Shown here: positions 2,909-33,072 of the stretch, one piece after another
Numbering within the stretch: the first letter of the stretch is position 1
Layout of the letters: every line of letters starts with the position of its first letter
NCBI RefSeq assembly: GCF_000316625.1
Contig: NC_019676.1
Coordinates: forward strand, 5,660,501 to 5,724,500
Direction of reading: 5' to 3'
From: Nostoc sp. PCC 7107
Lineage (GTDB): Bacteria; Cyanobacteriota; Cyanobacteriia; Cyanobacteriales; Nostocaceae
DNA length: 64,000 bases
Program-made: the position numbers and the translations under genes
Notes under the pieces: model-generated
Database searches by the model: none
Seen by the model: only the letters and a program-made list of their open reading frames with translations
Told to the model about the DNA's origin: nothing

Positions 2909-3087
2909 GATTTGAGAACTCTTTCAACTCCTGTGCCAACTTGTAGACGGTACCATTTCCGAAATGTTCACCACAAGTCACTGTAGATAGTTGTGCAGAG
3001 GGTGGACAAAAATTTGTTCGCCCTACAGCATCAACAACCGATAACGAAATTCTGTTATAGATTGGAAAAAGGCACAAACTCATCGAG

Positions 3088-5241
3088 ATGGTTGTGATGT
3101 ACAGCAAGAATCAATTTGTTTTAGCATTAGTCTTGAAAAGCGCGATCGCATTTTCACCCTTGCTGCTGTCTGCTGGTTTGGCTAGTGGACAAAGTATACC
3201 ACCCATCGTCAAAGCACAAACTGTAGCCCAAGTACTCTCTACTCCAGAACGGGAAGAACTAAACCAGCTGCGAAAGCAAGTTCCATCTAATGGGAATCAG
3301 ACAACTATCTTACTTAACGTCTGGTTAGTTATACTCAGTCTATTTCCTGTCGCGGTGATTGCTTTATTTTGGCTGTTACGTCGAGTCGCCATTCGAGAAA
3401 TTGTTGATAGAGCAATGGGACAACTACAAGGCATAGAAAAGTTACAAAATCAGATAACTATTGTTAAGCAAGAAGCCGAAAATTTGATTCAAGAAGTCAA
3501 AAAAATCAATCGAGAATTAGAAAATGAATCGGCAACTTTACAACAAAATATAAAACAAGAACAAGATAATTTATCTACTTTCTCTGCTGAATTAATACAA
3601 TCAAAAAATAGTATTTTATCTAGTTTAGAAATAGAAATTAATCACCTGCAAAAGCATATAGAAAATATAGAGGCTGAATTTAGTAGTCAATTACAACAAC
3701 TTCAATTAACGGCTGTACAAAAACGCGATACAAGTTTAGAAAATATCGGGAACTTAGAATCTGATTTTGCTTCGCACATTTCCGAAATCAAATTAGGCAC
3801 TGAAAAGCATAAACATTTAACTTGGGACTATTTAGAAAAGTCTAAAAATGATTTTATAGCGCAAATCACCAACTTACAATCTGATTTGCAACAGCAAAAA
3901 GATGTCTTAATTGAGGGTTTATTAAAAACTCAAGCAGACTTTATCTCAGAGTTGGCGGGAATTAGAGTAGATGCGGAACAACAAAGAGATAAAACTAAAA
4001 ACAATATTTCCGAATTAGAACAAAGCTTTAATTTACATATATCGGGATTAAGCTCTGATAGTCAGCAAAGCAAAGATAATTTACTAGAAGAATTAGGTAA
4101 AATTCAAACAGAATTTATCTCGGAGTTGGCGGGAATTAGAGTCAATGCAGAACAACAAAAAGATAGAACACTGCAAAATATCACCGAATTAGTCAATGGT
4201 ATGACATCTCAACTATCTGGTTTACCATCGGAGTATGAGCAACAAAAACAGGTTTTATTAGAAGATTTAGCAAAATTACAAGTAGCAGTACAATTAGATA
4301 TCCAAAACCAGAAAGATTTAATCATCGAAAATTTGGAAAAATCAGAGTTAGAGTTCGCTACACAATTTTCAGAGTTGCAGATAAATGCTCAAAAACAAAA
4401 GTTATTCATCCTTGAAAAACTCGAAAAATTAGAAACGGAATTTGTAGCGCAACTTTCAGAGCTACAATTAGATGCTCAACAACGCAAAGAGTTAATTCTG
4501 CAAGAAATTACCGAATCAAAAGAACAACAAACTCCAGAACCGCAGGTATCCGTAGAGGCTAATTTACAACAGGGTGATGATTTATTTGCCCAAAGGCAAT
4601 ATGAAGATGCGATCGCCTGCTACAATCAAGCAGTTAAAATCCAGCCGGAGAATGCAACTGCTTGGTTGAAACGTGGTTTAACTTTTGCTAGATTAAAGCG
4701 TTATCAAGATGCGATCGCCTCTTATGATCAGTCTATCAAGCTGCAACCAGATTACCATCAAGCGTGGTGCGATCGCGGCGTAGCTTTCGGTAATCTCCGC
4801 CAGCATAAGCAAGCCTTTGCTTGTTTTAATAAAGCGACGAAAATCAAACCCGATGATGCAACGGCTTGGTTAAATCGTGCCTTGTCTCTCATAGAATTGG
4901 ATGAATATGAAGAAGCATTAGCTTCATTTGAGCAAGCTTTAACATTCCAACCAGAATCTCCGAAACTGTGGGATAAACGCGGTTATACCCTGGTAAGATT
5001 AGGGCTAGACGATGATGCGATCGCGGCATTTAATCAAGCCATAGCCATTAAACCAGATTATGCGATCGCTTATTACAACAAAGCAGCTTGTTATGCACTG
5101 CAAAAACAAGCTGAATTAGCAATTGAATGTCTGCAACAAGCAATTGAAATTAATCCTAGATATAAAGAAGATGCAGCAGAGGATATTGATTTTGATGAAA
5201 TTGCCAATAATGAAAGATTTCAGCAGTTAATCACTAGCTAG
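3088..5241 (+). CDS. Membrane-anchored coiled-coil protein with C-terminal TPR repeats
   Basis: This 717-residue protein has an N-terminal hydrophobic signal (residues 8-36) and a second hydrophobic segment at about 75-97, followed by Arg (LLRRVAIRE), so it is probably an inner-membrane protein. Residues of about 105-490 are a long coiled coil built from related units: ISELAGIRVDAEQQRDK and ISELAGIRVNAEQQKDR occur twice almost unchanged. Residues of about 495-690 contain six TPR units (for example YEDAIACYNQAVKIQPENA), then a short acidic end. TPRs bind partner proteins and the coiled coil probably oligomerises. No enzymatic domain is seen. ATG at 3097 is an alternative start, and no strong ribosome site decides between them. 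Confidence 0.8.
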   Translation: MVVMYSKNQFVLALVLKSAIAFSPLLLSAGLASGQSIPPIVKAQTVAQVLSTPEREELNQLRKQVPSNGNQTTILLNVWLVILSLFPVAVIALFWLLRRVAIREIVDRAMGQLQGIEKLQNQITIVKQEAENLIQEVKKINRELENESATLQQNIKQEQDNLSTFSAELIQSKNSILSSLEIEINHLQKHIENIEAEFSSQLQQLQLTAVQKRDTSLENIGNLESDFASHISEIKLGTEKHKHLTWDYLEKSKNDFIAQITNLQSDLQQQKDVLIEGLLKTQADFISELAGIRVDAEQQRDKTKNNISELEQSFNLHISGLSSDSQQSKDNLLEELGKIQTEFISELAGIRVNAEQQKDRTLQNITELVNGMTSQLSGLPSEYEQQKQVLLEDLAKLQVAVQLDIQNQKDLIIENLEKSELEFATQFSELQINAQKQKLFILEKLEKLETEFVAQLSELQLDAQQRKELILQEITESKEQQTPEPQVSVEANLQQGDDLFAQRQYEDAIACYNQAVKIQPENATAWLKRGLTFARLKRYQDAIASYDQSIKLQPDYHQAWCDRGVAFGNLRQHKQAFACFNKATKIKPDDATAWLNRALSLIELDEYEEALASFEQALTFQPESPKLWDKRGYTLVRLGLDDDAIAAFNQAIAIKPDYAIAYYNKAACYALQKQAELAIECLQQAIEINPRYKEDAAEDIDFDEIANNERFQQLITS

Positions 5242-8687: not shown

Positions 8688-10253
8688 TTATGCCATCTCG
8701 TTGAGCATATACTCAGCCATACTTTTATTAACTTCTCTAAACAGTTTGCGTCCTTTACCTAATTTATCTTGTCCTTTGAGAAACTCTAAGAAACTCCGAT
8801 GATAAATACTATAGTAAATTTTTCCTTCTTCTACATTGACTTTCGGTGTTACATATTCAACCCAATCATTTAACACCGATTTCACATCATATTCATCTTC
8901 ATCAAGAATTTCTGCAATCATTCTGAGAGATATTGCTTCACCTCTTTCTACCAAGATATAAAGTATTTTTACCTTTTGTGCATTAGATTCATTATCCATC
9001 CCCATCCGCTGCCAATGAGTTGTATAGTAATCTTGCAGACCTTGGGGTAATCCTTTTAAAGTTAAATCGTTATATTTACCTTCAGAAATTCCTGGTAATA
9101 GATAGCGTAAATATATGAAATTATTTTCACTCTTAACAGCTATTTCCTGAGTAAAAGTCTCTTCTGAAATATGGCGATCGCTAATCCAAGTTTTCAGTTG
9201 ATGATCATTCTGCAAAAAAAGTTGAATATACTCTTTGACATCTTCCTGACTCGCAGCTATATAATCACTTTTTGTTAAATCTAATTCATCCACAGGCGTA
9301 TCAGGAGACAACGTTAAACGTTTAGTTTCTTGAGTATAAGGTCGTCTAGTCAGGAAAAAATAAACCCCATCAGGGAGATTTTGAGGTAAATCTAAAAGAT
9401 TACTATTTCCTGCTTGTTCTACTTCATCCAGTGCATCAACAACAATGACAAGTTTTTGTCCTTTGAGTTCTTCACTAGCTTTTTGTAGTAAAGTTCTTAA
9501 ATCAGCGTTTTCTGAGTTTTGCAAAGCATACCGCTTAATCAATTGTTGACGGATGTTAGCTAAAAACTGTTCTGGTTTATTGCGTCCTTCGGCGAAGACA
9601 TTAAAATAACAAGGACATTTGAGCATCGAAATATATTTAGCCGCGATCGCACTTTTTCCCATCCCTGCATCCCCAATCACGGTAAAATAACCTTTGGGTT
9701 GAGTGGCGAAAAATTTATTCATCGCTTTGAAGACAAAATCACGCCCACAGAATAAGCGAGTTTTTTCAAAAATTAAGGCTTTAAACTCTTTGGGATAAAC
9801 ATCTAGATTCCAATCTGGATAAGGCTGATATTTAGAAGATTTAGTTTGTTTAGCAACTGCAATAAAAGTTTCCCCAAATTCTTCTAATTCTGCCGAAAAA
9901 TTAACTTTACTATGAATAATCTGTGTTTTTAGTTCGCTATTTTGATACAGAAATTTTTTGGTATTTTCTACAAACCCAAAGGCATTATTATTACTATAAG
10001 CATCCCAAAAAAAATCTTTAATTACTTTCTCTCTCAACAAATTTAAAATTGCTTCTGGCTTAAATACTCCATACTTTACCAGTGTGTAAGCATAAACAGT
10101 ATCAACGTCATCAATAATTTGAGTAGGATTGAGTTTTAATTCTTGTAAAACTTTGATAACAGCTTCGTTTTTCTGAGCTTGTTTAATAATTAGTTGACTA
10201 GCTTGAGGTGCATATTTCTTAATTACTGAAGTAATGACAGCAAACTCTATCAT
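8688..10253 (-). CDS. STAND-type (NACHT-like) P-loop NTPase with N-terminal helical domain
   Basis: This is a 521-residue protein. Residues 1-160 form a mostly helical N-terminal domain that I do not recognise; in STAND proteins this position holds an effector or adaptor. A CGRDFVF motif near 169 leads to Walker A, GDAGMGKS, at 194-201. Walker B, VIVVDALDE, is at 269-277, with a FFLTRRP sensor strand. The C-terminal winged-helix part ends with YYSIYHRSFLEFLKGQ, where single-chain relatives continue into sensor repeats. Here the sensor is the next gene. It is the first gene of the operon. Such NTPases act as signalling switches in immunity-like conflict systems; the ligand and effector of this one are unknown. 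Confidence 0.85.
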   Translation of the reverse strand: MIEFAVITSVIKKYAPQASQLIIKQAQKNEAVIKVLQELKLNPTQIIDDVDTVYAYTLVKYGVFKPEAILNLLREKVIKDFFWDAYSNNNAFGFVENTKKFLYQNSELKTQIIHSKVNFSAELEEFGETFIAVAKQTKSSKYQPYPDWNLDVYPKEFKALIFEKTRLFCGRDFVFKAMNKFFATQPKGYFTVIGDAGMGKSAIAAKYISMLKCPCYFNVFAEGRNKPEQFLANIRQQLIKRYALQNSENADLRTLLQKASEELKGQKLVIVVDALDEVEQAGNSNLLDLPQNLPDGVYFFLTRRPYTQETKRLTLSPDTPVDELDLTKSDYIAASQEDVKEYIQLFLQNDHQLKTWISDRHISEETFTQEIAVKSENNFIYLRYLLPGISEGKYNDLTLKGLPQGLQDYYTTHWQRMGMDNESNAQKVKILYILVERGEAISLRMIAEILDEDEYDVKSVLNDWVEYVTPKVNVEEGKIYYSIYHRSFLEFLKGQDKLGKGRKLFREVNKSMAEYMLNEMA

Positions 10254-12506: not shown

Positions 12507-14291
12507 TTAATCGTCAAGTTTTTTTACCGTGTCTTCATGAATATGAGGAAGCAATGGTAACACCAAGGTAAAGCAAACCTCTCTGGTGCGTGATTCAACA
12601 AAAATAGAGCCACTTAAAAGTTCTACTAGTTTTTTCACCAAAGCCAATCCTAAACCAGTACCGCCAGCGCTTACATGTCCCATATTGGGGATGCGGTAGA
12701 ATTTGTCAAAAATGCGAGATAGTTCAACTTCAGGAATTTCTACACCAGAATTAACCACGCAAAGATGCAGCTGATTATCTTGTTGGTGAGCAGTGACTGT
12801 AATATTTTCGCCTGGAGGTGTATATTTACAGGCATTTTTGACTAACTCACGCAGAATCCGGCTCAAACTAGATATATCGGTAGTTAGTAATGGTAAATCA
12901 GGAGCCAATTGAATTTGCAAATTTTGGTGCTGTTGTTGAGATTGAATCATAAATACTTCGATTGTGTAGAGAATCCAATCAGACAAATTGATAGTTGTTA
13001 ATTGTAAGGGATAAAATTCAGCATTTAAATATTGCAAATCCAGTAAATCTTGAATTAGCTGGAGTTCGCCTGCTGACTCTTCATATAAAATTGCCAAATA
13101 CTGGGATATTTTGTGATTATGTTGCTTGAGGCTCGTTAATTCTGCTTCTAATAACTGGATAAATGATTGAATATTAGCAATAGGATTACGTAATTCATGA
13201 GAGATAGAACAGAGAAAATCATCTTTGAGTTGATTCAGTCGTTGTAACTCTTCAACCTGTGCTTGAGCAGCTTGATAAAGTCGAGCTTGACGGAGAGCGA
13301 TCGCACATTGATTTGCTAACTGTTTAACTAACCTTACTTCCAGTTCATCAAAGGCTTTTGTTACTGATTTAAACAACCACAAACTACCCAAAATTTTTTG
13401 ATCATCAAAAATTTGGCATAATAAAATAGCATATTTCCGTTCATTCTTATCCTCGCTATTGAGAAAATACCAGCAAAATTGAGTGCAGTGTTCTGTCCGC
13501 AATTTTGTAGGAAATCCCACCCAGCTTTTTACTTGTTTAATACAATTAATACCCCAATCAATATCACTATTATTTCTATACTCATGAGCAACAGCACAAG
13601 TTTTTAAATCATTATTGCAAATAGTTGCATAACAACAATCTAGTTCCAAGCCAACTACCAACTCTGCCACTGCTGCCTGCCAAATTTTTTCTTCATCCAA
13701 ACTGTCACGAACTGTATCTGTAATTCGTTTTAATCTTGCCTCAAATTCTAGAGATTTTTGTAATTCCTCAGTACGTTCGATAATTTGTTTTTCAAAACTC
13801 TTATTAAGTGCTTGCAAAGCTGCTTGTGCTTGTTGACGTTCTTGAATTTCTTGATGTAGTTGGTGGTTTTGAGTTATTAGTAATTGCCTCTGCCGATAAA
13901 TAATTAATTGATTTTGTACCCGTGCCAAAACTTCCAACTCTTGAAAAGGCTTAGTAATATAGTCGGCTCCTCCTAACTCAAAGGCTTTAATTTTATCTAT
14001 AGTTTGATCTAATGCACTAATAAAAATTATTGGAATATTAGCGGTTTTTTCTTGTGATTTTAATTGCTGACAAACTTCATAACCATTGAGTTCTGGCATA
14101 TTAATATCCAGTAAAATCAAATCAGGTGGTTCGATTTGTGCAGCCTGAATTGCTATTTTACCGCTAACGGTTTTTTTTACCTTAAATCCCTTAGACTCAA
14201 GTATCTTGGCTAACAAACGTAGATTATCTGGGGTATCATCAATCAGCAAAATTAAAGCAGAATGAATAGAAGATGATTTAAATAAGTCCAT
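12507..14291 (-). CDS. Hybrid response regulator/histidine kinase (REC-GAF-HisKA-HATPase)
   Basis: This is a 594-residue protein. An N-terminal receiver domain (residues 12-130) has acidic pocket IDDT and phospho-acceptor Asp62 in LLDINMPELNG. A coiled coil (about 140-185) and a GAF-like domain (about 190-340) follow. The kinase core has H-box ISHELRNP near residue 365 and the HATPase G-boxes GGTGLGLALVKKL near 560. There are no membrane segments, so it is cytoplasmic. It starts 54 bp after the phytochrome kinase and is almost certainly co-transcribed with it. Its N-terminal REC is therefore a plausible phospho-acceptor of the phytochrome, which is inferred. Confidence 0.88.
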   Translation of the reverse strand: MDLFKSSSIHSALILLIDDTPDNLRLLAKILESKGFKVKKTVSGKIAIQAAQIEPPDLILLDINMPELNGYEVCQQLKSQEKTANIPIIFISALDQTIDKIKAFELGGADYITKPFQELEVLARVQNQLIIYRQRQLLITQNHQLHQEIQERQQAQAALQALNKSFEKQIIERTEELQKSLEFEARLKRITDTVRDSLDEEKIWQAAVAELVVGLELDCCYATICNNDLKTCAVAHEYRNNSDIDWGINCIKQVKSWVGFPTKLRTEHCTQFCWYFLNSEDKNERKYAILLCQIFDDQKILGSLWLFKSVTKAFDELEVRLVKQLANQCAIALRQARLYQAAQAQVEELQRLNQLKDDFLCSISHELRNPIANIQSFIQLLEAELTSLKQHNHKISQYLAILYEESAGELQLIQDLLDLQYLNAEFYPLQLTTINLSDWILYTIEVFMIQSQQQHQNLQIQLAPDLPLLTTDISSLSRILRELVKNACKYTPPGENITVTAHQQDNQLHLCVVNSGVEIPEVELSRIFDKFYRIPNMGHVSAGGTGLGLALVKKLVELLSGSIFVESRTREVCFTLVLPLLPHIHEDTVKKLDD

Positions 14292-14345
14292 AATTTAAAA
14301 TTTTTGTCAAATGTAACTGAATAATGAAGAGAAGAATATCAAAAA

Positions 14346-17330
14346 TTAGTGCAAAATCTCTTTTGTCAAGTTAATAATAGTCTCTAGATGAAAGTTATCC
14401 ACTAAATCTTTTAATGCAGCAGCAAGCTGAAGCTTGTTTGCCGGAATTTCTTGGAAAAGTTGATAAAGTTTTTCATCATCTATCGTTAGTGCGGCTTCAT
14501 GAACTTGAACAATCCAATTTGTTGGCATATCTGCTAAATCAGATACAGTTAATTTTTGAGATTGGTGTTTTAATTCTGGCGAAGGTTTTTGCTGATTTTC
14601 GGCATAAATGTAACGCACACCAAGATACTGCGACATTTTGTCAAATAGAACAGTTTCGTCAAAAGGTTTGGCAACAAAATCATCACAGCCTACTTGCAAA
14701 ATTTCTTGTCTGTCTTCTTCAAAAGCACTCGCAGTTAAAGCGATGATTGCTAAAACTTTACTTTGAGTATGAGCGCGAATTTGCTTAGTTGCTTCATAAC
14801 CATTCATCACAGGCATTTGTATATCCATCCAAATGAGATGCGGTTGCCAAGCTTTGCAGATATCAACAGCTGTTAGACCATTCTCTGCTGCACACACCTC
14901 AAAACCAACAAACTTCAGTAGCTTTACCATCAACTGACGATTTTCTACAACATCCTCAACAATTAAAATGCGGTATTTAGGTTGACCAGGTTCTAAACCA
15001 ATGACTCGCCTGGTTAATTGTGTAGAAGGCAAAACATCCACTTTATCTACAACAGTCATCTGCACACTGCAAGTAAAGGTTGAGCCTTGACCTAAAACAC
15101 TCTGAGTGCGAATATCACCCCCCATTAATCTGGCAAACTGACGACTAATGGCTAGTCCTAAGCCAGTACCCTGCATAAACTGTCGTCCACCTTTAGCCTG
15201 TGCAAATGCTTCAAATATTAACTCTAAATCTTCAGCGGCAATTCCTAGTCCAGTATCTTCAATGGCAAATTCTACATTTATCTTGTCTGATTCTTTGGGA
15301 AATGAAGCATGATCAACATAAGATACTCGCAGTGCCACATAACCAACAATTGTAAATTTGATAGCATTGCCTAGCAGGTTAATCAGTATTTGTCTGAGCT
15401 TACCTTCATCACCACAAACATATTGATTTACTTCTGCACTCAAATCAGTAATGATATTTAATCCTTTATCTGAGGCTTTCAAAGCAAACATTTCTTGAAT
15501 TGAGTAAATCAAACGATACAAATCAAAACAACTTTCATTTAGGGTTATTTGACCGGCTTCAATTTTCGACATTTCTAAAACATCATTAATTAAAGCTAAT
15601 AAATGTTCACCACTACGGCTAATAATATCTAAATGCTCTTTATCACTTTGAGATAAAGAACTATTCCGGGTCATAATTTGGGTGAAACCTAAAATAGCAT
15701 TGAGTGGAGTACGCAATTCATGACTCATCTTCGCTAAGAATTGACTTTTAGCACGATTGGCAATTTCTGCTTGTTCAGCTGCTTGTTGAAGCGCTACATG
15801 GGAAAACTCCAGTGCTGCCAACATCAAGTTATTTTTCATTTCCTGTGCAACTTCAATTTCAAAGTTTTGCCAGGGATAAGATTTATCTTGAACTGTTTGT
15901 TTCCACCGTTCAAATGACTTGCGTGGCGTTAGACGCAAAGTTTTATTTGCAGCCACAGAAATTGATGTATGAGGATTACCAGCCCAATTAACCGTTTGCA
16001 CTTGCTCAGGTCGTAACCAAATAATATGGTAAGATCTTTGGTTAAGAAAAATTGAAATTGCCAGAATGCCACTAACTTTATCTTTGAATTGTTTAGCTGG
16101 GGGATAGAGTTGTGGTAAAGAATCAGTAGAAAAAATCTCTGGTGGTTTTTGCTCAGAAAGCCAATTTATTAGCTTTCTCATTTCTGTTTCAGTAGGAGTT
16201 TGACCAATCAATGTTAGTTGTTCTTCTAATAATATCGCAACCCCTTGAGCTTGGACTAAATTTAATAAATTGGACTCGTTGCGTTGAAAAACATTGCCGA
16301 TATATTCCAATTTTTTAGATAATGCTTGCCTAAGTTGTTCTTGAATTGCTTTAACTTGTTGGCGATAGGAATTCAATGCTCGTTCTTTCTGATTGAGTAA
16401 TTCAACCGAGGCAAACTGTCCAATAAATTCACAAATTTTGCGTGTTTCATAATCAATTTTTTTAGGTGTGTAATTATGACAAGCAATTAAACCCCAAAGC
16501 CTATTTTGATTGATCAGAGAGATACACATAGTTGCTGTAACTCCCATATTCTGCAAGTATTCTATATGCCAAGGTGAGACGCTTCTTAGTGTTGCTCTAC
16601 TCAGATCTAAGGATATATGGGGCGGAATTAATTGCACTGGTTGATAATTTATATCTGGAATTAGCCGCAACCATTTTTCGTAGTAAAGTTGTCTAGCTTG
16701 GGCTGGAATATCAGAAGCTGGATAGTGTAGTTCTAAATAACTTTCTAGATGGCTTTGCTTATCTTCGGCAATCACAACTCCGCTGTAGTCTGCTTCTAAT
16801 CTATAAAGCATGACCCGATCAAACTGAGTAATTCTTCTAACTTCTTCGACAATAATTTGAAATAGTTCTGAGGAGTTTTTAGCCCTAACTATCTGAGAAA
16901 CTGTTGTTTCTAAAAGATGATAATATCCCAGGAACAGACTACTTTTTGGATAGGAATGTGGTTCTAATTCTAAGATTAAAACATTGTGCGATCGCTTGAT
17001 AATTCCGAGAAAGACTTTCGGAGAATTTTCTCCACCAATGTTATGCAGTTCAGATTTTAATTCAAACAGATGAACAAATGTTAAAGTTTTTTGTTGGAGA
17101 TAATTACTAATTAACTGGATCTGCTCTAATGAAAAAAGGTAATTTAAATCTTTACCAATCAAATTTGCTGCGGTAATACCAAAATATTGAGTAGTATTGT
17201 CACTGGCTTGAATAATTTTTAGTTGTGTTTCTTCTAAGGCTAAAAGTACCCCATGTGGTTGGATATAACCAGGAATATGAATTGGCTCATGATTACAGTC
17301 AATAATATCAATTGTGTCTGAATTCAACAT
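14346..17330 (-). CDS. Biliverdin-type bacteriophytochrome hybrid histidine kinase
   Basis: This 994-residue protein has the full PAS-GAF-PHY photosensory module and a kinase-receiver output. The N-terminal Cys12 ([17 protein letters not shown]) sits where bacteriophytochromes attach biliverdin. At the GAF position used by Cph1-type phytochromes it has Trp ([10 protein letters not shown]) instead of Cys. The DIPAQAR motif and the ACHNYTP histidine are present. The PHY tongue has WAGNP and PRKSFERW. The kinase has H-box [12 protein letters not shown] and a HATPase with [12 protein letters not shown]; the receiver (about 785-905) has Asp in [11 protein letters not shown]. An 85-residue helical tail follows. 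It is a red/far-red light sensor, first gene of a pair with 12507-14291. Confidence 0.92.
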
Positions 17331-20294: not shown

Positions 20295-20327
20295 AAGTCT
20301 GATTTTTGGTAGCCAAACATTTTATAT

Positions 20328-20400
20328 ACCCCTAAATCCCCCTTAAAAAGGGGGATTTAAAGAGACTCTTAGCCCTCATTTTTAAGGGGTTTGGGGGGAT
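20328..20400. repeat. Palindromic GGGGGATTT-type intergenic repeat
   Basis: ACCCCTAAATCCCCCTT and AAGGGGGATTTAA form one hairpin, and a further TTTTTAAGGGGTTTGGGGGG arm follows. The composition and sequence are like those of the copies at 656-731 and 42915-42957. It lies in the gap after the GH10-like gene. Confidence 0.7.
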
Positions 20401-20501
20401 TTTCAGAATTATTGTACATGGTTTTTGGTTTTACGCTTGTGCCTTATTTCGGGTAAATAAGGTAATCTTATTTGATTTGTAAAAATCTAGAGGCTCAGAT
20501 A

Positions 20502-20532
20502 CCAGACTTCTTTAATAAGTCTGGCATCTTTT
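20502..20532. terminator. Intrinsic terminator-like hairpin between convergent genes
   Basis: CCAGACTT (20502-20509) pairs with AAGTCTGG (20517-20524) around a short A/T loop, followed by CATCTTTT on the plus strand. It lies between the convergent GH10-like gene and the ABC exporter gene, so it may end transcripts from both sides. Confidence 0.6.
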
Positions 20533-20573
20533 AGTTCACGAATGATTTAGGATTACTTTATGTTGTAAAAATG

Positions 20574-22391
20574 TTATTCAGAAATACCGTAATGTTGTGC
20601 CTGCATATTCCACAAAGTTGTATATTCACCACCGCGCTGTAAAAGTTCCTGATGAGTGCCATCTTCAACTAAATGACCAGATTTGAGAACTAAAATTCGA
20701 TCAGCCATCCGTACAGAAGCGAGTCTATGAGTAATCAAAATTGTAGTTTTACCCTCCGCTAATTCAATAAAGCGTCGGTAGAGATGATATTCGCTACGAG
20801 GGTCGAGTGCCGCAGTCGGTTCATCTAATAGTAATAGTTGGGCTGATTGACGCACAAAAGCACGAGCTAAAGCTAATTTTTGCCACTGACCACCAGAAAG
20901 TTCTGTACCGCCAAATTGCTTTCCCAGTGGGGTATTTTCTCTGGTGGTAAAATCATCAACTAGTTTAGATATATCAGCTTTTTCTATTGCATATCTCAGA
21001 ACATCTGGATTTGTTAAAGCAGCTAAATTTCCCAAAGCAATATTTTCTCCCAGAGTCAGCGCATAATGCCCAAAGTCTTGAAAAACAACAGCAATTTGCT
21101 GCCGCCACTGTTCTAAATTTAAGTTTCTTAAATCTATTCCATCAACTAAAATACTTCCTTTTATTGGGTCGTATAATCTAGTCAAAAGTTTAACTAAAGT
21201 AGTTTTACCTGCGCCATTTTCTCCGACAATAGCAACTGTTTGTCCTGGGTAAATGGTAAAAGAAATATCTTGCAGAGCTAAACGATTATCTGGGTAATAA
21301 AATTCAACTTGCTCAAAAGTAATACCTGAACAAATAGGCGTAGGAACTTTCTCCCCAGGTATACTGATTTGCATTGGTATAGGACTGTCGATAAAATTGA
21401 AAAATTGCTGCATATAGAGAACATTTTCCAACAGATCTACCCAATTAGCGACAAACCTTTCGAGATTATTTTGAAAGTAAGTTAATGACTGTACAAATAA
21501 AAGTACACTACCAGGACTGAAATCGCCGCGAAAAGCTTTCTGTACTACCCAATAAAAAGCAAAACCATTTCCCAACGTACTAAGAATAGCTAAAGTAGAC
21601 GACCAAAATGCTTGCTTTCCCCGCAGATGTCGCATCGTTTGATGTAAAGACTGAAACGCTTGTAGGTAACGAGTGATAAAAAATGAACCTAGCTGAAACA
21701 ACCTAATTTCTTTCGCATAGGTATCAGTCAGCATCACCGAAGTGTAATATTGCATTCTCCGCGCTTCAGGGCTATGTTCAAATAAAGTTAGCCAAATCGT
21801 TTTGCCATAATGAGAAGAAACCACTATTTGGGGTATAGTGGCGATCGCAATTACTAATGGTATCCAAAAAGCTAGGGGAACTAAGAGCATGACTATCACT
21901 ATCAAAGTGACAAAAGAGCGACTTAATTCCACTAAATTCTCTAATAAACTCAGCGGTTTATAACCGATTTGTTGTTGCAGAAGTTGTAGCTCATCATAAA
22001 ACACAGAATCTTCAAAACGACTCAAATCTGCAAAACAATCAGTTTTACTCATTAATAATAAGCTAATGTGAGCCGTTAACTTGTCATTGAGATCTCCTTG
22101 AAGTGCAAATACCCAAGGATACAGCAATGTCTCTAGTAGCAAAGCTCCCACCCATCCTGTCACCAAAGGTACAAGCATTGCATACCCTAATTCTCTCCCA
22201 GATGTTAAGGCTGCTGCTACAGTATCTACTACTAATTTGGTAATCCAAACACTAATAGCCGGAAGAAACCCTTGCAATAAAGTAACAGCAATCAAAAATA
22301 TCATTTCTCTCGGCGCTGCTGTCCATAACAAAGGTAGAGAACGAAATAAAGCTTTAGTGTAGTCTACAAACCAAACTCTTAAATCGCTCAT
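20574..22391 (-). CDS. ABC exporter, fused permease-ATPase (RiPP export type)
   Basis: This protein of about 605 residues has an N-terminal membrane region with five to six hydrophobic segments (roughly 30-310) and a C-terminal ATPase. The ATPase has Walker A GENGAGKT, signature ELSGGQWQ, Walker B LLLLDEPTAALD and an H-loop ITHRLASV. The ATG at 22391 is taken; a TTG codon precedes it. There is no N-terminal C39 peptidase domain, so it does not itself cleave leaders. It is like lantibiotic and TOMM exporters. It is divergent from the Cys-rich precursor gene across a 610-bp gap, which supports a role in exporting the mature peptide; that link is inferred. Confidence 0.85.
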   Translation of the reverse strand: MSDLRVWFVDYTKALFRSLPLLWTAAPREMIFLIAVTLLQGFLPAISVWITKLVVDTVAAALTSGRELGYAMLVPLVTGWVGALLLETLLYPWVFALQGDLNDKLTAHISLLLMSKTDCFADLSRFEDSVFYDELQLLQQQIGYKPLSLLENLVELSRSFVTLIVIVMLLVPLAFWIPLVIAIATIPQIVVSSHYGKTIWLTLFEHSPEARRMQYYTSVMLTDTYAKEIRLFQLGSFFITRYLQAFQSLHQTMRHLRGKQAFWSSTLAILSTLGNGFAFYWVVQKAFRGDFSPGSVLLFVQSLTYFQNNLERFVANWVDLLENVLYMQQFFNFIDSPIPMQISIPGEKVPTPICSGITFEQVEFYYPDNRLALQDISFTIYPGQTVAIVGENGAGKTTLVKLLTRLYDPIKGSILVDGIDLRNLNLEQWRQQIAVVFQDFGHYALTLGENIALGNLAALTNPDVLRYAIEKADISKLVDDFTTRENTPLGKQFGGTELSGGQWQKLALARAFVRQSAQLLLLDEPTAALDPRSEYHLYRRFIELAEGKTTILITHRLASVRMADRILVLKSGHLVEDGTHQELLQRGGEYTTLWNMQAQHYGISE

Positions 22392-23001
22392 CAATTAAAC
22401 CTAATTATTTATTTGGTATGAAGTAAAAACCACCTGATCCCTGTTTTGTATTAATCTACATAGCCATATTCAAGCTAGGTGCTGCATAAGTATCTCAATG
22501 CAGCAAGTTATATTAGAGTCTATCTAAACGAAAAACCATCCTACTTAAGAAAGAGTAAGATGAAGATTCTGGGTAAAAACTATACTACTTAAGAAAGAAT
22601 AAAAAACTCTAGAAAAAGATAATGTTAGAGAAGTCAGATGATCAAAAAAAAGACAAGTAGTTTGCTAAAAATAGCAACCGTTTTATCAAAGACAAGGTTT
22701 TAGAGAAACTCAATTTTATCCATGAGTTTCCATCACTTATTTCACAGTGATTTTGACCATTTGTGGATTAGTAAAACTCTGAATAAAAGCTGAGCATTTT
22801 TGTTTAACTAGACCTGTATAGGTATATATAGTTAAGCATTAACCATTGTCTTAGTTTCTAGTCATCCTTTACATCTACCCGGTCTAATATCCATTCTTGA
22901 ATGAAAGCTAGTTGATATACAAACATCATCAAAGCTTTCATAAACTTGAATGCAGATTTGCTAATAGACTCATAAATTGAAATTAACAGGAGTAAGTTAC
23001 C
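22392..23001. promoter_or_regulatory. Divergent control region of the RiPP locus
   Basis: This is a 610-bp A/T-rich gap between the exporter and precursor start codons with no credible ORF. It contains two direct repeats at 22541-22558 and 22585-22602 (CTACTTAAGAAAGA followed by G/A TAA), with starts 44 bp apart, possibly operator sites. AGGAG at about 22989 is the ribosome site of the precursor gene. No clear -10/-35 box can be named. Confidence 0.5.
22541..22602. repeat. Pair of 18-bp direct repeats upstream of the RiPP precursor
   Basis: Copies at 22541-22558 and 22585-22602 differ at one base (CTACTTAAGAAAGAGTAA versus the same with ATAA at the end). Their spacing of 44 bp is about four helical turns, as expected for a cooperative regulator site. 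The regulator is unknown. Confidence 0.6.
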
Positions 23002-23352
23002 ATGCTTGCAGAAAAAACACTGACCCGACAAACAATAGATATGCGTTTAGAAGACAAAGCAGACAAATTAGAACAACTTTTGTTATCTGATGAAGAAATA
23101 GCAGCTTTAGAAAAATTGGCAATGCCAGGAATGTTGGAATCTGAGACTCAGCAAAGATGGTTTGCTAATTGCGGCGGATGTGGAGGCTGCGTTGGATGTC
23201 GAGGCTGCGTCGGATGTCGAGGCTGCGGATGTCGTGGATGTGGAGGATGTCGCGGATGTGGATGTCGTGGATGTGGAGGATGTAGAGTTAGTGAAACTGG
23301 CTCAATATCAAGCGTGCCAGATGACAGCGATGATTTCGGATTTGGATACTAA
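23002..23352 (+). CDS. TOMM RiPP precursor peptide with Cys/Gly/Arg repeat core
   Basis: This is a 116-residue precursor with a strong AGGAG ribosome site. Residues 1-56 are an acidic, helical leader (LEDKADKLEQLLLSDEEIAALEKL). The core at 57-95 carries 14 cysteines at positions 57, 60, 63, 66, 69, 72, 75, 77, 80, 83, 86, 88, 91 and 94, built from GGC, VGC and RGC units, with GC dipeptides at 77 and 88. A 21-residue acidic follower ends in DDFGFGY. The arrangement resembles heterocycloanthracin/sonorensin-type precursors, in which Cys become thiazoles. The enzymes encoded downstream (23568-26862) fit that chemistry. The leader cleavage site is not evident, and no protease gene is seen nearby. 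Confidence 0.88.
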   Translation: MLAEKTLTRQTIDMRLEDKADKLEQLLLSDEEIAALEKLAMPGMLESETQQRWFANCGGCGGCVGCRGCVGCRGCGCRGCGGCRGCGCRGCGGCRVSETGSISSVPDDSDDFGFGY

Positions 23353-23410
23353 ATAAGCAGGAGAGAAAATAACAATTCTATAGCATTCTTCAATCATTTG
23401 CTGAATACAG

Positions 23411-23443
23411 AGGTTCCCGAATTCTCAAAGAATTCGGGAACCT
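23411..23443 (+). terminator. Perfect 14-bp-stem hairpin between precursor and modification genes
   Basis: AGGTTCCCGAATTC (23411-23424) pairs perfectly with GAATTCGGGAACCT (23430-23443) around the loop TCAAA. No U-run follows, so it is more likely an attenuator, RNA-processing or 3'-end-stabilising element than a full terminator. It would let the precursor be made in excess over its enzymes. Confidence 0.75.
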
Positions 23444-23567
23444 GAACACCAGTAAATGTTCATAAAATTAAGATTGTTCTAGCTACGAAAACATAGAATT
23501 TTATTTTCTGAATTTTGCTGAATACAATCGATTTTTTATTTTTTTGTGGAGCTTTAACAATAAAATA

Positions 23568-24686
23568 ATGCTTATGAAATTAAATGATCATCAGCATCTG
23601 CGTCTACTAGAACACGTTGTAGTTCATGTTATGCCGCCAGATTGTCATGGCGAAGAAACAATGATATTCAATACGACGAGGCGAACCTTAACAGTTAAGG
23701 GTCAAGCACTGCACGATGTAGAAAGTATAGTATTGCCTTTACTAGATGGCTCCCGAACAATAGGAGAAATTCGGGCGGAAATTGGCGAAAAATTGACAGA
23801 TGCTTCACTCAATCAATGTTTAGAGTTTTTGATAGAAAATCGCTTAGTTGAGGAGCTTTTAGAAGAAACGATTGATTTAGATAATCGTGCTTATTTACTG
23901 CCACAAATTAGTCTTTATCATGAGTTAGGCTTTCAGCAAAAAGATGCTCAACAACACTTAGCCAATGCAAGGATTGCTGTTTTCGGACTTGGTGGTTCAG
24001 GGTTGATAGCAGCAATTAACCTGGCTAGTGCTGGTATTGGTTATCTGCGGTTGTGTGATGATATCTGCACAATTCCCTCCGATGTGATGATGATGTCAGG
24101 CTTAGTATTTAAGCAAATCGGTGCCTTGCGAGGTGTGGAAGCAGCAAGACAAATTCAGGCGATCGCAGAAATCACCGATACTGAGATTGTGATTGATAAT
24201 TTGATGGACGATGCCACAGTCAATACTTTGCTTGAAGATGTTGACCTTGTAATTGTCGCCACCGATGCTGTTTCTGTTAATCTCACCTATCGCCTCAACA
24301 GATTATGCCTGAAAATGCAGCGCCCATTGCTACCAGGTGGGGCGGCTGGTGTGGAAGGAACTTTTGGCCCCCTAGTCTTTGCTAAAGATGGCCCTTGTTA
24401 TCTCTGCTATCGGATGCGGTCGATAGCTTGCGCCAAACTACCAGAAGCGGAATTGGCAATTGAGCGATTTCTCGACCGAGAACGCCGTTCTCAACCAAGG
24501 TTGCAAGAAAATTTACCGATCGCTCAGATGTTGGTCGGAAGTTACTTGGCGCTGGATGCTATTAAGATGTTTCTCGGTCTACCTATTGTCACTGATGGCA
24601 AATTAGTGCATTTAGACTTACTCGGAACAAAACTAACTCACAACGTTGTGCTGAAAAAACCTGGTTGTCCTCATTGTTCACGATAG
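23568..24686 (+). CDS. TOMM cyclodehydratase partner (E1/ThiF-like C protein with RRE)
   Basis: A protein of about 372 residues; ATG 23568 (or 23574) is preferred over an upstream TTG. Residues of about 35-90 look like a RiPP recognition element (winged helix, ending in LNQCLEFLIENRLVEELL) that binds the precursor leader. The rest is a ThiF/E1-like fold with GLGGSG and a zinc site made by CYLC and CPHC. The usual E1 SNLxRQ segment is replaced by a Met-rich loop (SDVMMMSG), so adenylation by this chain is unlikely. In TOMM systems this protein presents the peptide to the YcaO enzyme, whose gene follows after 11 bp. Confidence 0.88.
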   Translation: MLMKLNDHQHLRLLEHVVVHVMPPDCHGEETMIFNTTRRTLTVKGQALHDVESIVLPLLDGSRTIGEIRAEIGEKLTDASLNQCLEFLIENRLVEELLEETIDLDNRAYLLPQISLYHELGFQQKDAQQHLANARIAVFGLGGSGLIAAINLASAGIGYLRLCDDICTIPSDVMMMSGLVFKQIGALRGVEAARQIQAIAEITDTEIVIDNLMDDATVNTLLEDVDLVIVATDAVSVNLTYRLNRLCLKMQRPLLPGGAAGVEGTFGPLVFAKDGPCYLCYRMRSIACAKLPEAELAIERFLDRERRSQPRLQENLPIAQMLVGSYLALDAIKMFLGLPIVTDGKLVHLDLLGTKLTHNVVLKKPGCPHCSR

Positions 24687-24697
24687 GAGAGAATATA

Positions 24698-26008
24698 GTG
24701 AATGTTGCGATCGCTAGTCCCCGTTGGCGCGATTTAGTTAGCCCCCATACAGGAATCATTCGCGCCATTGATAGATTTACTAAGCCTTATACAGAGTTTG
24801 ATTTTCCTGTTTTGTGGCAAGCTGAATTAGCAAATTTCCAACTTCGCAAACAGTCGGATGATTTACGTTACGGTGTAGGCAGGGGTATGACTGATGAACA
24901 AGCAATTTTTGGGGCAGTTGGCGAAGCCGTAGAGCGCTACTGCGGTAGCATTGTTGATTATCGGCAACTAATTGTGAGTAGTTACGCAGATTTAAGTCAT
25001 CCCGCCGTTCATCCGCCAACTTTTTTCTCGTTTTCTGACAACCAATATTCTGACTCATCCTTTCCCTTTCCGGCTTTTGATCAAGCAACGCAGACTTCAT
25101 GGATAACTGCCATATCTCTGACAAGTAACCAACAGGTGTTAGTCCCAGCCTTCATGGTTTATTTTGACTGGGATAGCAATGTACCAGGAGATTATATTTT
25201 ACCTGTCACCTCTAATGGTATGGCTAGTGGCCCTACTCTTGAATTTGCGGCTTATAGTGGCTTGTGCGAGTTGATTGAGCGTGATGCTTTTATCATTACA
25301 TGGTTAAATCGCCTACCTGCTCCCCGGATTTATTTCGCTCATCGTCCCGGAATTGAGACGGAGATTTTACGCCACTACACCCGATTTGGCATTGAGTTAG
25401 TTACCTTCTATTTGACTACAGATATTAACATCCCCGTTGTTATGGCAATGTTAATTGACCGTTCTGGCAGAACTCCAGTTGTGGCGACTGGTTTAGGATG
25501 TCATCTGGATGGGTCAACAGCACTGCGTAAGGCGATTTTTGAAGTTTGTCAAGCCCGCTTTGGTGACATAGAACGCAAAGCTAATGGCGCTGGGGCTAAT
25601 CTCAATCAATATGAAGATGTGCAGAATTTAGAGGATCACAGCGCTTTTTTCTACACAACCACTCGGCTAGGGGAGTTGGAATTTTTATTTGAGCATGAAA
25701 ATTACCTCACAGTTGAAGATTTACCAACTTACCCATCTTCAGCCGAGGTAGAAAAATTGCGAACTGTCATTACAAGGTTGCATTCCGTTGGTGCTGAACC
25801 CTATTTAGTAGAAATTACCACGCCTGATGTTGTATCGCTTGGTTTTCGCGTTGTGCGGACTTTAGCCAGTGAATTAGTCCCGATATATTTTGGTCATGGG
25901 CTAGAACCGTTGGGTACTCAGCGGTTATTCGAGGTACCAAAAAGGTTGGGTTATGGTGGACAACGTACAGTAAAAGACTTAAATCCCTGTCCACATCCTA
26001 TGGCGTAA
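24698..26008 (+). CDS. YcaO-type azoline-forming cyclodehydratase (D protein)
   Basis: GTG 24698 is chosen because AGGAGAG lies seven bases upstream; a TTG at 24665 would overlap the previous gene. The product has 436 residues. ATP-binding YcaO motifs are visible: AVGEAVERYCG, SNGMASGPTLEFAAYSGLCELIERDAF and the following basic segment. The last residues, PCPHPMA, contain the C-terminal PxPxP motif needed for activity in many TOMM YcaO proteins. It uses ATP to turn Cys, and possibly Ser/Thr, into thiazoline or oxazoline rings. It works with the E1-like partner encoded upstream. Confidence 0.93.
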   Translation: MNVAIASPRWRDLVSPHTGIIRAIDRFTKPYTEFDFPVLWQAELANFQLRKQSDDLRYGVGRGMTDEQAIFGAVGEAVERYCGSIVDYRQLIVSSYADLSHPAVHPPTFFSFSDNQYSDSSFPFPAFDQATQTSWITAISLTSNQQVLVPAFMVYFDWDSNVPGDYILPVTSNGMASGPTLEFAAYSGLCELIERDAFIITWLNRLPAPRIYFAHRPGIETEILRHYTRFGIELVTFYLTTDINIPVVMAMLIDRSGRTPVVATGLGCHLDGSTALRKAIFEVCQARFGDIERKANGAGANLNQYEDVQNLEDHSAFFYTTTRLGELEFLFEHENYLTVEDLPTYPSSAEVEKLRTVITRLHSVGAEPYLVEITTPDVVSLGFRVVRTLASELVPIYFGHGLEPLGTQRLFEVPKRLGYGGQRTVKDLNPCPHPMA

Positions 26009-26013
26009 AACAA

Positions 26014-26038
26014 TTTTGGATTTTGGATTTTGGATTTT
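26014..26038. repeat. Heptanucleotide tandem repeat (STRR)
   Basis: TTTTGGA is repeated three times, followed by TTTT. Such heptamer runs are typical of heterocyst-forming cyanobacterial genomes. It lies between the YcaO and SagB-like genes. Confidence 0.8.
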
Positions 26039-26130
26039 ATTACACCCCTATACCCATTTTCCGTTTAAGTATAACGGTGCAAATAAACCAAACTATGTAA
26101 CAAAAAGTAAAATTTCAGGAAATCAAAACT

Positions 26131-26862
26131 ATGTATACAGCCAACGAGCCACTAGAGTTAGCGCTGCTTTATCATTTGAATTCTCCAGTACCTAAAAGTT
26201 ATGTCAAACGTGTTCCCGCTACAGAAATGCGATATATGCCGGAGGCTCCTTTTTTGGAACTGCCAAAAGCACCACACGATAACTCGCTGAGTCAAATTTT
26301 AGCGCGACGGTCTTCAGTGCGATCATTTGCTGAGACAACTATGCCACTGATTCAATTAGCGCAGTTGCTGGATGCTGGATGTGGACTAAATGGGTTGCGT
26401 CAAATGGATGGTTACACCTATGAAGCGCGAAACTCACCATCTGCGGGAGGGCTTTATCCGTTGGAGGTTTTTGTTGCAACACAAGAGGTGGAAAATTTAG
26501 CTAATGGACTATATCACTATGAGCCACGCGGTCATGGCTTGCATCGGGTGAATGATACAGTACCAAACGATTTTGTCAAACCTTTATTGCAACAGGATTA
26601 TATAGTGAATTCTAATGCTTTGTTTGTGTTTACATCGGTTTTTATGCGATCGCTCTGCAAATACGGTGCGCGTGGTTATCGTTTTGCACTTTTAGAAGCT
26701 GGTCATCAAGCCGAAAACATCTGTCTGATGGCTGTGCAGTTGGGTTTGGATAGTCTTTGCATAGGCGGATTTTATGACATGAATTTAAATACCATGTTAG
26801 GTATCGATGGGAAACGTCATGCAGCACTTTACTGTGTTGCTGTCGGTACTGAGAGAAAGTAG
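26131..26862 (+). CDS. SagB-type FMN-dependent azoline oxidase (B protein)
   Basis: This is a 243-residue nitroreductase-like protein with ribosome site CAGGAA. ILARRSSVRSFAE (about 56-68) and NSPSAGGLYPLEVFV are the FMN-binding signatures of SagB/McbC dehydrogenases. GYRFALLEAGHQAENICLMA is the conserved helix near the active site. It oxidises thiazolines/oxazolines to aromatic thiazoles/oxazoles. With the partner and YcaO genes upstream it completes the BCD set of a TOMM synthetase. It ends 4 bp before the stop of the convergent LysR gene, so the RiPP locus probably ends here. Confidence 0.9.
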   Translation: MYTANEPLELALLYHLNSPVPKSYVKRVPATEMRYMPEAPFLELPKAPHDNSLSQILARRSSVRSFAETTMPLIQLAQLLDAGCGLNGLRQMDGYTYEARNSPSAGGLYPLEVFVATQEVENLANGLYHYEPRGHGLHRVNDTVPNDFVKPLLQQDYIVNSNALFVFTSVFMRSLCKYGARGYRFALLEAGHQAENICLMAVQLGLDSLCIGGFYDMNLNTMLGIDGKRHAALYCVAVGTERK

Positions 26863-26866
26863 AGAA

Positions 26867-27850
26867 TTAAGGTTTTACTTTTGTCTTATTTAGAGATTTT
26901 TCGGTAAAATTTATATTTGTATGCGATGCGATCAAAGTTTGTTCAAAGACTTTTGCTAGAGCCGTTTGAAACCGTTGGCGATGCTTGAGTTTAAAAAATG
27001 GTCGAACTATTTCTAAATCTTTAGTGCAATTTGCTTGGTAAGTGCAAACTCGAATTGCCCGTAAAGTTCCTAACTGAATTTCTTTTTTGACCATTAACTC
27101 AGAAATCCCAGTTGCACCTACACCACTTTCGACAGCAGCTTTGGCCATTTCGCCACTATTGAAAACCAAAATTATATTCAGTTCACTAATATTAATACCC
27201 CAATTTTTTAGAGCTTCTTCAAATTTTTGCTGGGTTCCAGAACCGGATTCTCTCATCACCCAATAAGTTTGAGTCAGTTCTGTAACAGTAATTTCTCCTA
27301 GCTCAAACCAAGGGTGAGTTTTGCCGACAACTATTTGTAAGCGATCGCTCCCAATTATTTCTCGTTCTAAAGTATTCTGTAAAGCTGGTTTAACATCACC
27401 TTCAACTAATCCTAAATCAAACTGACCCATTGCCGTTCCTTCACAAATTGTTTCGGCATTTGCCAAACAACAATCAACGGAAATTTGCGGATACTTGCTT
27501 TTAAATTCACTAATTTTACTTGGCAACCAATAGTTACCAATGGTTAAACTTGAGCCTAATTTTAATTCGCCGCGTTGCAGGTTGTTCAATTCCCTTAATC
27601 CTCGTTCTGTTAACGTCACTTGGTCGAGAATTTTCCGTGCTTCCACTTGTAATAACTTACCAGCTTCGGCAATCTCAATATGGCGACCAATCCGATGAAA
27701 CAGTTTGACTCCGTATTCTTGCTCTAAGTTGTGAATTGCTGCACTAACGGCTGGCTGAGTAATATAAAGCTCTTCAGCTGCACGCGTAAAGTGTAGATGC
27801 TCTGCTACAGCGAGAAAGATTCTTAGCTGCTCCAGTGTCATCCCTGCCAT
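26867..27850 (-). CDS. LysR-family transcription regulator
   Basis: This is a 327-residue protein. The N-terminal helix-turn-helix is clear (FTRAAEELYITQPAVSAAIHNLEQEYGVKLF, residues 20-51, with the helix covering AAEELYITQPAVS), followed by a LysR substrate-binding domain (about 90-295; LKLGSSLTIGNYWLP, VMRESGSGTQQKFE). ATG at residue 4 is an alternative start. Such proteins bind a small-molecule co-inducer and regulate nearby or divergent genes. Here the divergent neighbour is the DUF202 gene. The target cannot be read from sequence. Confidence 0.9.
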   Translation of the reverse strand: MAGMTLEQLRIFLAVAEHLHFTRAAEELYITQPAVSAAIHNLEQEYGVKLFHRIGRHIEIAEAGKLLQVEARKILDQVTLTERGLRELNNLQRGELKLGSSLTIGNYWLPSKISEFKSKYPQISVDCCLANAETICEGTAMGQFDLGLVEGDVKPALQNTLEREIIGSDRLQIVVGKTHPWFELGEITVTELTQTYWVMRESGSGTQQKFEEALKNWGINISELNIILVFNSGEMAKAAVESGVGATGISELMVKKEIQLGTLRAIRVCTYQANCTKDLEIVRPFFKLKHRQRFQTALAKVFEQTLIASHTNINFTEKSLNKTKVKP

Positions 27851-32385: not shown

Positions 32386-33072
32386 TTACTTTTGCCTTGT
32401 TGCACTAGCGATCGCACTTTGGCATTCTTCTACAGAAGCACGCTGTTGCATAGCTTGAACTAAGGCTTCATAACTAGACCAATTTTCTTCTAAGAGAGTT
32501 TTTGCTTGGAGAACGTGAAACCTTTGTTTTTGCTGAAAAGCTGACTCCGAAAAACCGACGATTTTTAACACTCCTGCTAACTTAGCTTTATCGTCGCCGC
32601 CACCTTCAGCGCGATCAAATACCAACGCTTCCGCAGCCAAACCAGCCATCCACATTGTGCAGTAACGGTCTAGCATTTGGGCGCTAATGGTACCTTTTTC
32701 TAGTTGTGCAGCTAACTCAACGTCATTAAACGCTACACCACCTTGTCCCGGTTGTCCTTTTCGCCAAGCTTCCCAGGCGCTGAGGGTGTAACCAGTTACG
32801 GGAATACCCAGCAAAGAAGCTGCTAAAAAATGTCCCGCTTCATGACGGATAATGCGATCGCGGTGTTCACTCGAAAATCCCGCAATCCAATCTACTAGAA
32901 TAGTTCCACCCTTACCTTGCAAGCTAAAACTGTCTAAGGTGGCGATTCCTAAGATAGTGAAAGTGGCGAGTGCTGGTATTGTCGGCGATAAATTAATGAA
33001 TGGCCCCAACAATACCGAAAAAGTCATCAGAAAGATTGATATAGCTACTAAATTTAGGGCTGTTTGGCTCAT
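32386..33072 (-). CDS. Membrane M41/FtsH-like metalloprotease lacking an AAA domain
   Basis: This is a 228-residue protein. Two N-terminal hydrophobic segments (8-26 and 32-47) are followed by the zinc-site motif HEAGH at 77-81, after RIIR. A conserved downstream acidic stretch (AEGGGDDKAKL) may supply the third ligand. The region aligns with the peptidase M41 domain of FtsH, but no Walker motifs are present, so it would be an ATP-independent or partner-dependent membrane protease. Such short proteins are widespread in cyanobacteria and plastids. Its substrates are unknown. Confidence 0.8.
   Translation of the reverse strand: MSQTALNLVAISIFLMTFSVLLGPFINLSPTIPALATFTILGIATLDSFSLQGKGGTILVDWIAGFSSEHRDRIIRHEAGHFLAASLLGIPVTGYTLSAWEAWRKGQPGQGGVAFNDVELAAQLEKGTISAQMLDRYCTMWMAGLAAEALVFDRAEGGGDDKAKLAGVLKIVGFSESAFQQKQRFHVLQAKTLLEENWSSYEALVQAMQQRASVEECQSAIASATRQK

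Follow-up and report, generated by a model that had tools for sequence, protein, structure and literature searches.

Microcin B17 is made by separate C, D and B proteins, with Ser as well as Cys being cyclised, and is served by a TldD/PmbA-type protease (TldD/E) encoded elsewhere. Cyanobactins have precursors with N- and C-terminal recognition segments, a fused cyclodehydratase and subtilisin-type proteases. The subject of this study is a five-gene cassette of the filamentous cyanobacterium Nostoc sp. PCC 7107, located at 20574–26862 of a 64,000-nucleotide stretch (the window; bases 5660501–5724500 of the single 6,329,823-base contig). The cassette is a thiazole-peptide locus (thiazole/oxazole-modified microcin, TOMM; linear azole-containing peptide, LAP), and very probably directs the synthesis and export of a small cationic peptide with sulfur-containing rings. 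The survey by Cox, Doroghazi and Mitchell (2015, PMC4603692) has ten groups whose product is unexplored, one of them 'anabaenasin', with 11 species, a discrete cyclodehydratase and precursors rich in Gly and Cys, of which there are five. The Anabaena sp. 90 copy has a transposase between its C and D genes, and the survey suggested that the cluster might be 'mobile or inactive'. For heterocycloanthracin it describes a fused C-D cyclodehydratase whose N-terminus is short by about 100 residues, an accompanying F protein and a precursor gene that is often distant.

Gene content and distribution of the cassette

The cassette comprises an ATP-binding cassette (ABC) exporter gene on the minus strand, followed by divergent genes for the precursor, an E1-like partner, YcaO and SagB on the plus strand (aa, amino acids):

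20574..22394, minus strand: ABC exporter, 606 aa, MsbA/ABCB-type permease-ATPase (PF00005); orthologues adjoin the precursor gene
22988..22992, plus strand: Shine-Dalgarno sequence AGGAG of the precursor gene, kept in most aligned upstream rows
23002..23352, plus strand: precursor gene, 116 aa with 14 Cys (sequence; 37 precursors aligned)
23568..24686, plus strand: E1-like partner (TOMM C protein), start ATG 23568 or 23574 (ThiF PF00899; TIGR03882)
24698..26008, plus strand: discrete YcaO cyclodehydratase (TOMM D protein), 436 aa, start GTG 24698 (TIGR03604; C-terminus PCPHPMA)
26131..26862, plus strand: SagB/McbC-type flavin mononucleotide (FMN) dehydrogenase (TOMM B protein), 243 aa (TIGR03605; KY-x2-RGY motif)

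The first-pass annotation of this DNA had proposed a complete TOMM locus with an exporter, encoding a ribosomally synthesised and post-translationally modified peptide (RiPP), and this is supported: all five genes are present, they occupy exactly 20574–26862, and the set is kept across the family.

The E1 partner, YcaO and SagB were assigned at the curated NCBIfam cut-offs. The E1 partner passes TIGR03882 (41.3 against 36.9 bits, residues 260–379 of the longer frame) and lies below the cut-off of the SagC model TIGR03603 (40.1 against 187.65). It scores higher with MoeB-type models, yet under their cut-offs; its relatives in the PDB are MoeB, MccB and PaaA, and its CxxC pairs are invariant (16/16 aligned). 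YcaO passes TIGR03604 (327.6 against 219.25 bits), and its GTG start is preceded by AGGAG. It aligns with the LynD YcaO domain through the proline-rich end (E 1.6e-28), as well as with TruD, and is the sole PF02624 match in the genome at E 0.001. The PxPxP end reported at first pass is indeed present as PCPHPMA, and such an end is kept in 24/25 loci. SagB passes TIGR03605 (133.6 against 78.4 bits), with the putative nitroreductase 3eo7 as best PDB match (E 1.2e-35) and McbC also matched (E 2.7e-13). Its Lys-Tyr-x2-Arg-Gly-Tyr motif, kept in 24/24 sequences, aligns with McbC, in which the Lys-Tyr is the catalytic pair. In the exporter, PF00005 scores over its cut-off and the membrane domain PF00664 below; the MsbA-like NCBIfam matches all fall under their cut-offs, among the 25 matches listed.

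The cassette shares discrete C and D proteins, a Gly/Cys-rich precursor, Anabaena-type cyanobacterial carriers and the absence of a known product with anabaenasin as the survey describes that group; none of the loci analysed here bears the name Anabaena sp. 90. It resembles microcin B17 in its separate C, D and B proteins, in its exporter and in a B protein that aligns with McbC, and differs in the conserved acidic follower of the precursor and in the absence of Ser from the core. Cyanobactins are likewise YcaO peptides of cyanobacteria, and the YcaO here aligns with LynD and TruD, but the cassette has no protease gene and lacks the fused cyclodehydratase of the cyanobactins, its enzymes being discrete. 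Nostatin A is also an azole RiPP of a Nostoc strain, but this azole proteusin has a nitrile-hydratase-type leader, an epimerase, a LanM-like enzyme and a Ser/Thr-rich core (PMC11583998). Assignment to the proteusin or Nif11 TOMMs was rejected, as neither a nitrile-hydratase nor a Nif11 leader was matched by the precursor in Pfam and NCBIfam scans with an E limit of 1; the sole match in the NCBIfam scan at this limit is GmtX (0.15).

Distribution was analysed in an order sample of 388 genomes, including 71 of the window's family by hand count, a phylum sample of 386 genomes, and a scan of named genomes; several loci common to the order-wide search and the named-genome scan represent the same genome twice. 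Orthologues of the E1 partner at 67% identity or more occur in 22/388 order genomes, every one within the window's own family, and the next match by E-value shows 27% identity. The named-genome scan returned 26 loci, 24 at 69–89% identity, from genera classed as Nostocaceae, with two more remote loci at 23–24%. Loci L027 and L028, which have weak E1 matches, were rejected as carriers, with no such cassette within the 3.7–3.9 kb examined.

Synteny was counted over 25 loci, namely the 24 named loci and the window. The E1 and YcaO genes are present in 25/25, the precursor and SagB genes in 24/25 each, and the ABC gene in all 23 loci with DNA extending that far; these 23 hold all five genes together, save one without SagB. 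The contig of L045 stops short of the precursor, and the leader model finds one on another contig, apparently of the same genome. Apart from the five genes, no family exceeds 6/25 loci, so that the neighbours change and the cassette is constant: it behaves as a unit. In L052 and L054, for instance, it is set among genes whose translations read as ammonium transporters.

In the 16 genomes of the genus to which the three named Dolichospermum loci belong, eight YcaOs were found, seven being discrete and of cassette type and one lying in a 772-aa frame. Across the phylum sample, 15 close YcaO orthologues are discrete and 36 others (E 1e-20 or better, a threshold that would miss weaker discrete YcaOs) lie in 745–809-aa frames, as for fused enzymes. 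By architecture and elimination it is therefore very likely that the cassette family is the anabaenasin group. A literature search that lacked most subscription journals met the name 'anabaenasin' in Cox et al. 2015 alone, and the same search of the cyanobacterial YcaO and azole literature, conducted mostly at title level, turned up no product for the group. The available portion of PMC4907049 contains none of the terms bacteriocin, thiazole, TOMM and YcaO. The first-pass view of the product as uncharacterised therefore agrees with the literature searched, with the amendment that the group very likely already bears a name.

New here are the full gene set, the follower (a word absent from the main text of PMC4603692), the protease-free cassette, core variation by strain and a split inverted repeat that covers the putative promoter. 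The novelty is in the family definition, the follower and the core diversity, the principle being already known. What was very likely a single paragraph in 2015 becomes a family defined by its minimal gene set and an alignment of 37 precursors, and this makes heterologous production and mass-guided discovery straightforward.

The precursor family

The precursor is tripartite, its conserved leader being followed by a variable cationic core and a conserved acidic follower:

23002..23169, plus strand: leader, residues 1–56, conserved (dN/dS 0.31, see below)
23170..23283, plus strand: core, residues 57–94 (first to last Cys), 14 Cys, net charge +5, no Ser, Thr, Asp or Glu
23284..23349, plus strand: C-terminal acidic follower, residues 95–116, 22 aa, ending FGY, net charge −4

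The alignment holds 37 sequences from 36 genomes, eight loci being omitted because the same genomes were present under another locus. In 36 genomes the same E1 gene is preceded by this leader and follower, which are therefore not due to chance. The 14-Cys precursor with a cationic repeat core and the acidic C-terminal follower, both predicted at first pass, are borne out by the 116-aa peptide with its core from C57 to C94, and the follower proved to be family-wide (37/37). The leader, core and follower of the window peptide have net charges of −5, +5 and −4. The predicted 14 thiazoles stand as an upper limit, since a leader cut immediately ahead of Cys57 would leave no more than 13 rings.

Selection was estimated on 28 of the 37 sequences, those with constant leader length (378 pairs). 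The Jukes–Cantor (JC) ratio of non-synonymous to synonymous substitution rates (dN/dS) was 0.31 for the leader and 0.36 for the last 11 codons, and no pair had identical cores (0/378). Leaders are at least 90% identical in 28 pairs, 24 of which differ in core length; mean identity in these close pairs falls from 0.94 in the leader to 0.81 in the aligned core and 0.77 over the last 11 residues. Close relatives thus resemble each other no better in the follower end than in the core; length and unit order are what distinguish the core.

Each core contains 9–20 Cys and 4–8 Arg/Lys, and the 1537 core residues include 547 Cys, eight Ser/Thr and no Asp or Glu. Gly precedes 425 of the 547 Cys, and the chief units are GGC, RGC, GC, VGC, FGC, GRC and RPC. 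If fully cyclised, such cores would probably rank among the most thiazole-dense peptides known. The follower carries a net charge of −2 to −6 in all 37 precursors, exactly −4 in 28, and Phe-Gly before its last residue is invariant (37/37), giving the ending FG[Y/N/H]. Through this follower the function of an acidic C-terminal tail in azole biosynthesis can be tested directly. The leader model matched 15/386 phylum genomes, all of the window's family, and the window's genome once; no extra precursor was found elsewhere in that genome, the next leader matches (E 0.83 and 1.03) being in 649- and 618-aa frames.

L037 (Amazonocrinis nigriterrae) has tandem precursor genes at 8767–9165 and 9321–9653, with near-identical leaders and differing cores (20 and 12 Cys). 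The precursors of L019, L020 and L052, the last two being the same sequence, form a sub-clade in which Cys follows Tyr, His or Arg (GGYC, RHRC) rather than mostly Gly and the ending is FGN, a natural test of YcaO tolerance. Overlapping Cys-rich frames of HLSPVTC type, as from a simple-sequence array, lie between the E1 and YcaO genes at 11071–11410 of L049 (same genome as L017). Beside a distant E1 homologue in L031, a 124-aa open reading frame (2760–3134, minus strand) with CCCCSCCCCC near its end may be another TOMM precursor.

Proposed pathway and competing readings

We consider it highly probable that the cassette encodes the LAP route of the anabaenasin group by the mechanism set out here. 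Support for an azole pathway comes from the family matches of the C, D and B proteins, the LynD and McbC relatives, gene linkage, kept motifs, leader dN/dS, and the composition and charge of the core. The chemistry that we infer, from ring formation and number to cleavage sites, follower role, protease and export substrate, would run as follows. The leader would be bound by the E1-like C protein, which would present the core to the discrete YcaO. YcaO, using ATP, would close each Cys onto the preceding carbonyl to form thiazolines, and SagB with FMN would oxidise these to thiazoles, giving a cationic chain with up to 13–14 thiazoles among Gly, Arg and Val. An unlinked protease would trim off leader and follower, and the ABC protein would export the product and protect the producer. 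The cores differ between carrier strains. The acidic follower would offset the charge of the core, with its FG[YNH] tail acting as recognition for exporter or trimming; its steady charge and invariant tail suggest such a charge cap and recognition tag. It is possible, though still doubtful, that the FG[YNH] follower is a working element in this sense (charge cap and export or trimming signal), that the core is diversified by strain like a competition weapon, and that an unlinked regulator reads the split inverted repeat.

Some observations weigh against this picture. A RiPP recognition element (RRE), which would presumably occupy the N-terminal region of the E1 protein, was not found in its first ~110 residues by family search, the only match being PF21782 at a sub-cut-off E of 0.03; the RRE/E1-like partner named at first pass is confirmed as an E1-like protein by ThiF and TIGR03882, with its N-terminal RRE undetected. 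The L051 cassette lacks SagB, a 75% identical copy being present elsewhere. Pairwise distances correlate between genes (ABC/E1 0.88, E1/YcaO 0.91, SagB/leader lowest at 0.70), a pattern that plain vertical descent alone would also yield. The non-coding elements described below are inconstant, the inverted repeat at the promoter being missing in 10/23 upstream regions and the hairpin after the precursor gene being no better than shuffles in 8/24 loci.

Decaying or mobile debris without a product, in line with the 'mobile or inactive' remark of Cox et al. on Anabaena sp. 90, is a quite improbable description of the cluster. It would account for the transposase between the C and D genes of that strain (PMC4603692), for the patchy distribution (22/388 order genomes) and for the spurious, array-like Cys-rich frames of L017/L049. 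Against it, leader and follower are under purifying selection, the motifs are kept in SagB (24/24) and YcaO (24/25), and the window has five open frames. Because enzyme motifs are kept and the leader is under purifying selection, the pathway looks functional; the enzymes look active, and the cassette is a real locus for a known kind of pathway. Cys-rich, metallothionein-like composition and the want of a known product would also suit a metal- or redox-binding protein whose Cys stay wholly or largely thiols. We regard that as quite improbable given the linkage of E1 and YcaO in 25/25 loci and of SagB in 24/25, and given the Gly before 425/547 Cys; Gly before Cys is a common azole context.

The Gly-Cys repeats, together with YcaO and a B protein, also resemble those of heterocycloanthracin and sonorensin, the class to which the first-pass annotation likened the locus. 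That a true member of this class reached a cyanobacterium is extremely improbable. In contrast to the fused, N-truncated enzyme and F protein of that class, the enzymes here are discrete (~370 and 436 aa), the C protein keeps its N-terminal region, the precursor gene is linked, and the 25 loci share no further conserved gene in the cassette. TIGR03693 (F protein) and TIGR03601 (precursor) are without a match in the genome, in searches that had no positive control, and leader model matches in the phylum sample are confined to the window's family. Membership was rejected on gene architecture; the likeness extends to the look of the core and not to the definition given by Cox et al.

Granting the polythiazole of the LAP route, its biological role would most likely be that of a strain-level antibacterial agent. 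It is unlikely on balance that the product instead acts in or between the producer's own cells, as a signal or a nucleic-acid or surface binder. The cassette holds no separate conserved candidate immunity gene, as such a role would allow, but the exporter in 23/23 loci and the differing cores fit inter-strain competition better.

Proteases, non-coding elements and flanking genes

The absence of a leader protease nearby, noted at first pass, is true of the cassette; at greater distance, peptidase-like frames do occur in the window and, by rough motif scan, in 3/24 other loci. The exporter's Pfam matches include no peptidase domain, and Pfam recognised no peptidase family, S8 included, in 18 window proteins (8 + 10). 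The rough motif scan, which covered 471 frames from the 25 loci, gave no S8 pattern but was insensitive enough to miss the C39 gene of L036. It did pick up M16-like frames past SagB, at 2.7 kb in L043 and 5.9 kb in L049, and in L042 an HExxH frame on the far side of the ABC gene, 3.5 kb away; one more hit in L049 and two in the window look like chance. A 228-aa frame in the window (32386–33072, minus strand), 5.5 kb past SagB and without a Pfam match, contains HEAGH and may be a metallopeptidase-like protein bound to the membrane. Five frames of the PmbA/TldD family are present in the genome, and our guess, by analogy with microcin B17, is that a protease of this type may serve the cassette.

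Two non-coding elements flank the precursor gene:

22804..22835, plus strand: putative promoter TTAACT-17-TATAGT within the split inverted repeat TTAACTA-N18-TAGTTAA (promoter scan, upstream alignment)
23411..23443, no strand assigned: perfect 15-bp hairpin between the precursor and E1 genes, fold −29.6 against −14.6 for the lowest of 15 shuffles

The promoter scan of the region found 13 sites against 11.5 expected from shuffles and is therefore no evidence by itself. The split inverted repeat TTTAACTA-N17-18-TAGTTA spans the putative −35 and −10 elements and occurs in 13/23 upstream regions, by a pattern defined after viewing the alignment and without a shuffled control. In L044 both arms are altered together. 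No regulator gene lies within the cassette.

The hairpin beats all 15 shuffles in 16/24 loci, and hairpins of similar sequence stand at the same place between precursor and E1 genes in the close relatives L034 and L036. It coincides with a dispersed palindrome, CCCGA[AC]TTCT-N3-4-AGAA[GT]TCGGG, of which the genome has 32 copies (the window one at 23416–23438) and the reversed control none. A conserved, specific attenuator was therefore rejected, as 8/24 loci fail against shuffles and the palindrome in the window has 31 further copies; the hairpin may still act as an attenuator, though not a specific one. Known RNA elements were absent from 20300–27000 up to E 0.1.

MacAB/HlyD-like genes adjoin 12/24 named loci and not the window; from their translations, with no family search, they were taken as neighbours by descent and rejected as part of the cassette. 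In L036, small frames with a GG motif and then a C39 peptidase-ABC gene lie directly downstream of the cassette (13766–17222), and the C39 gene was counted as a separate bacteriocin cluster because of this position and the double-glycine peptides of its own in between, as read from translations. The C39/HlyD bacteriocin clusters of PMC3140520 are of a different kind from the cassette. Between the ABC and precursor genes of the window, two 28-bp direct repeats (22531–22558 and 22575–22602, 44 apart) are 89% alike.

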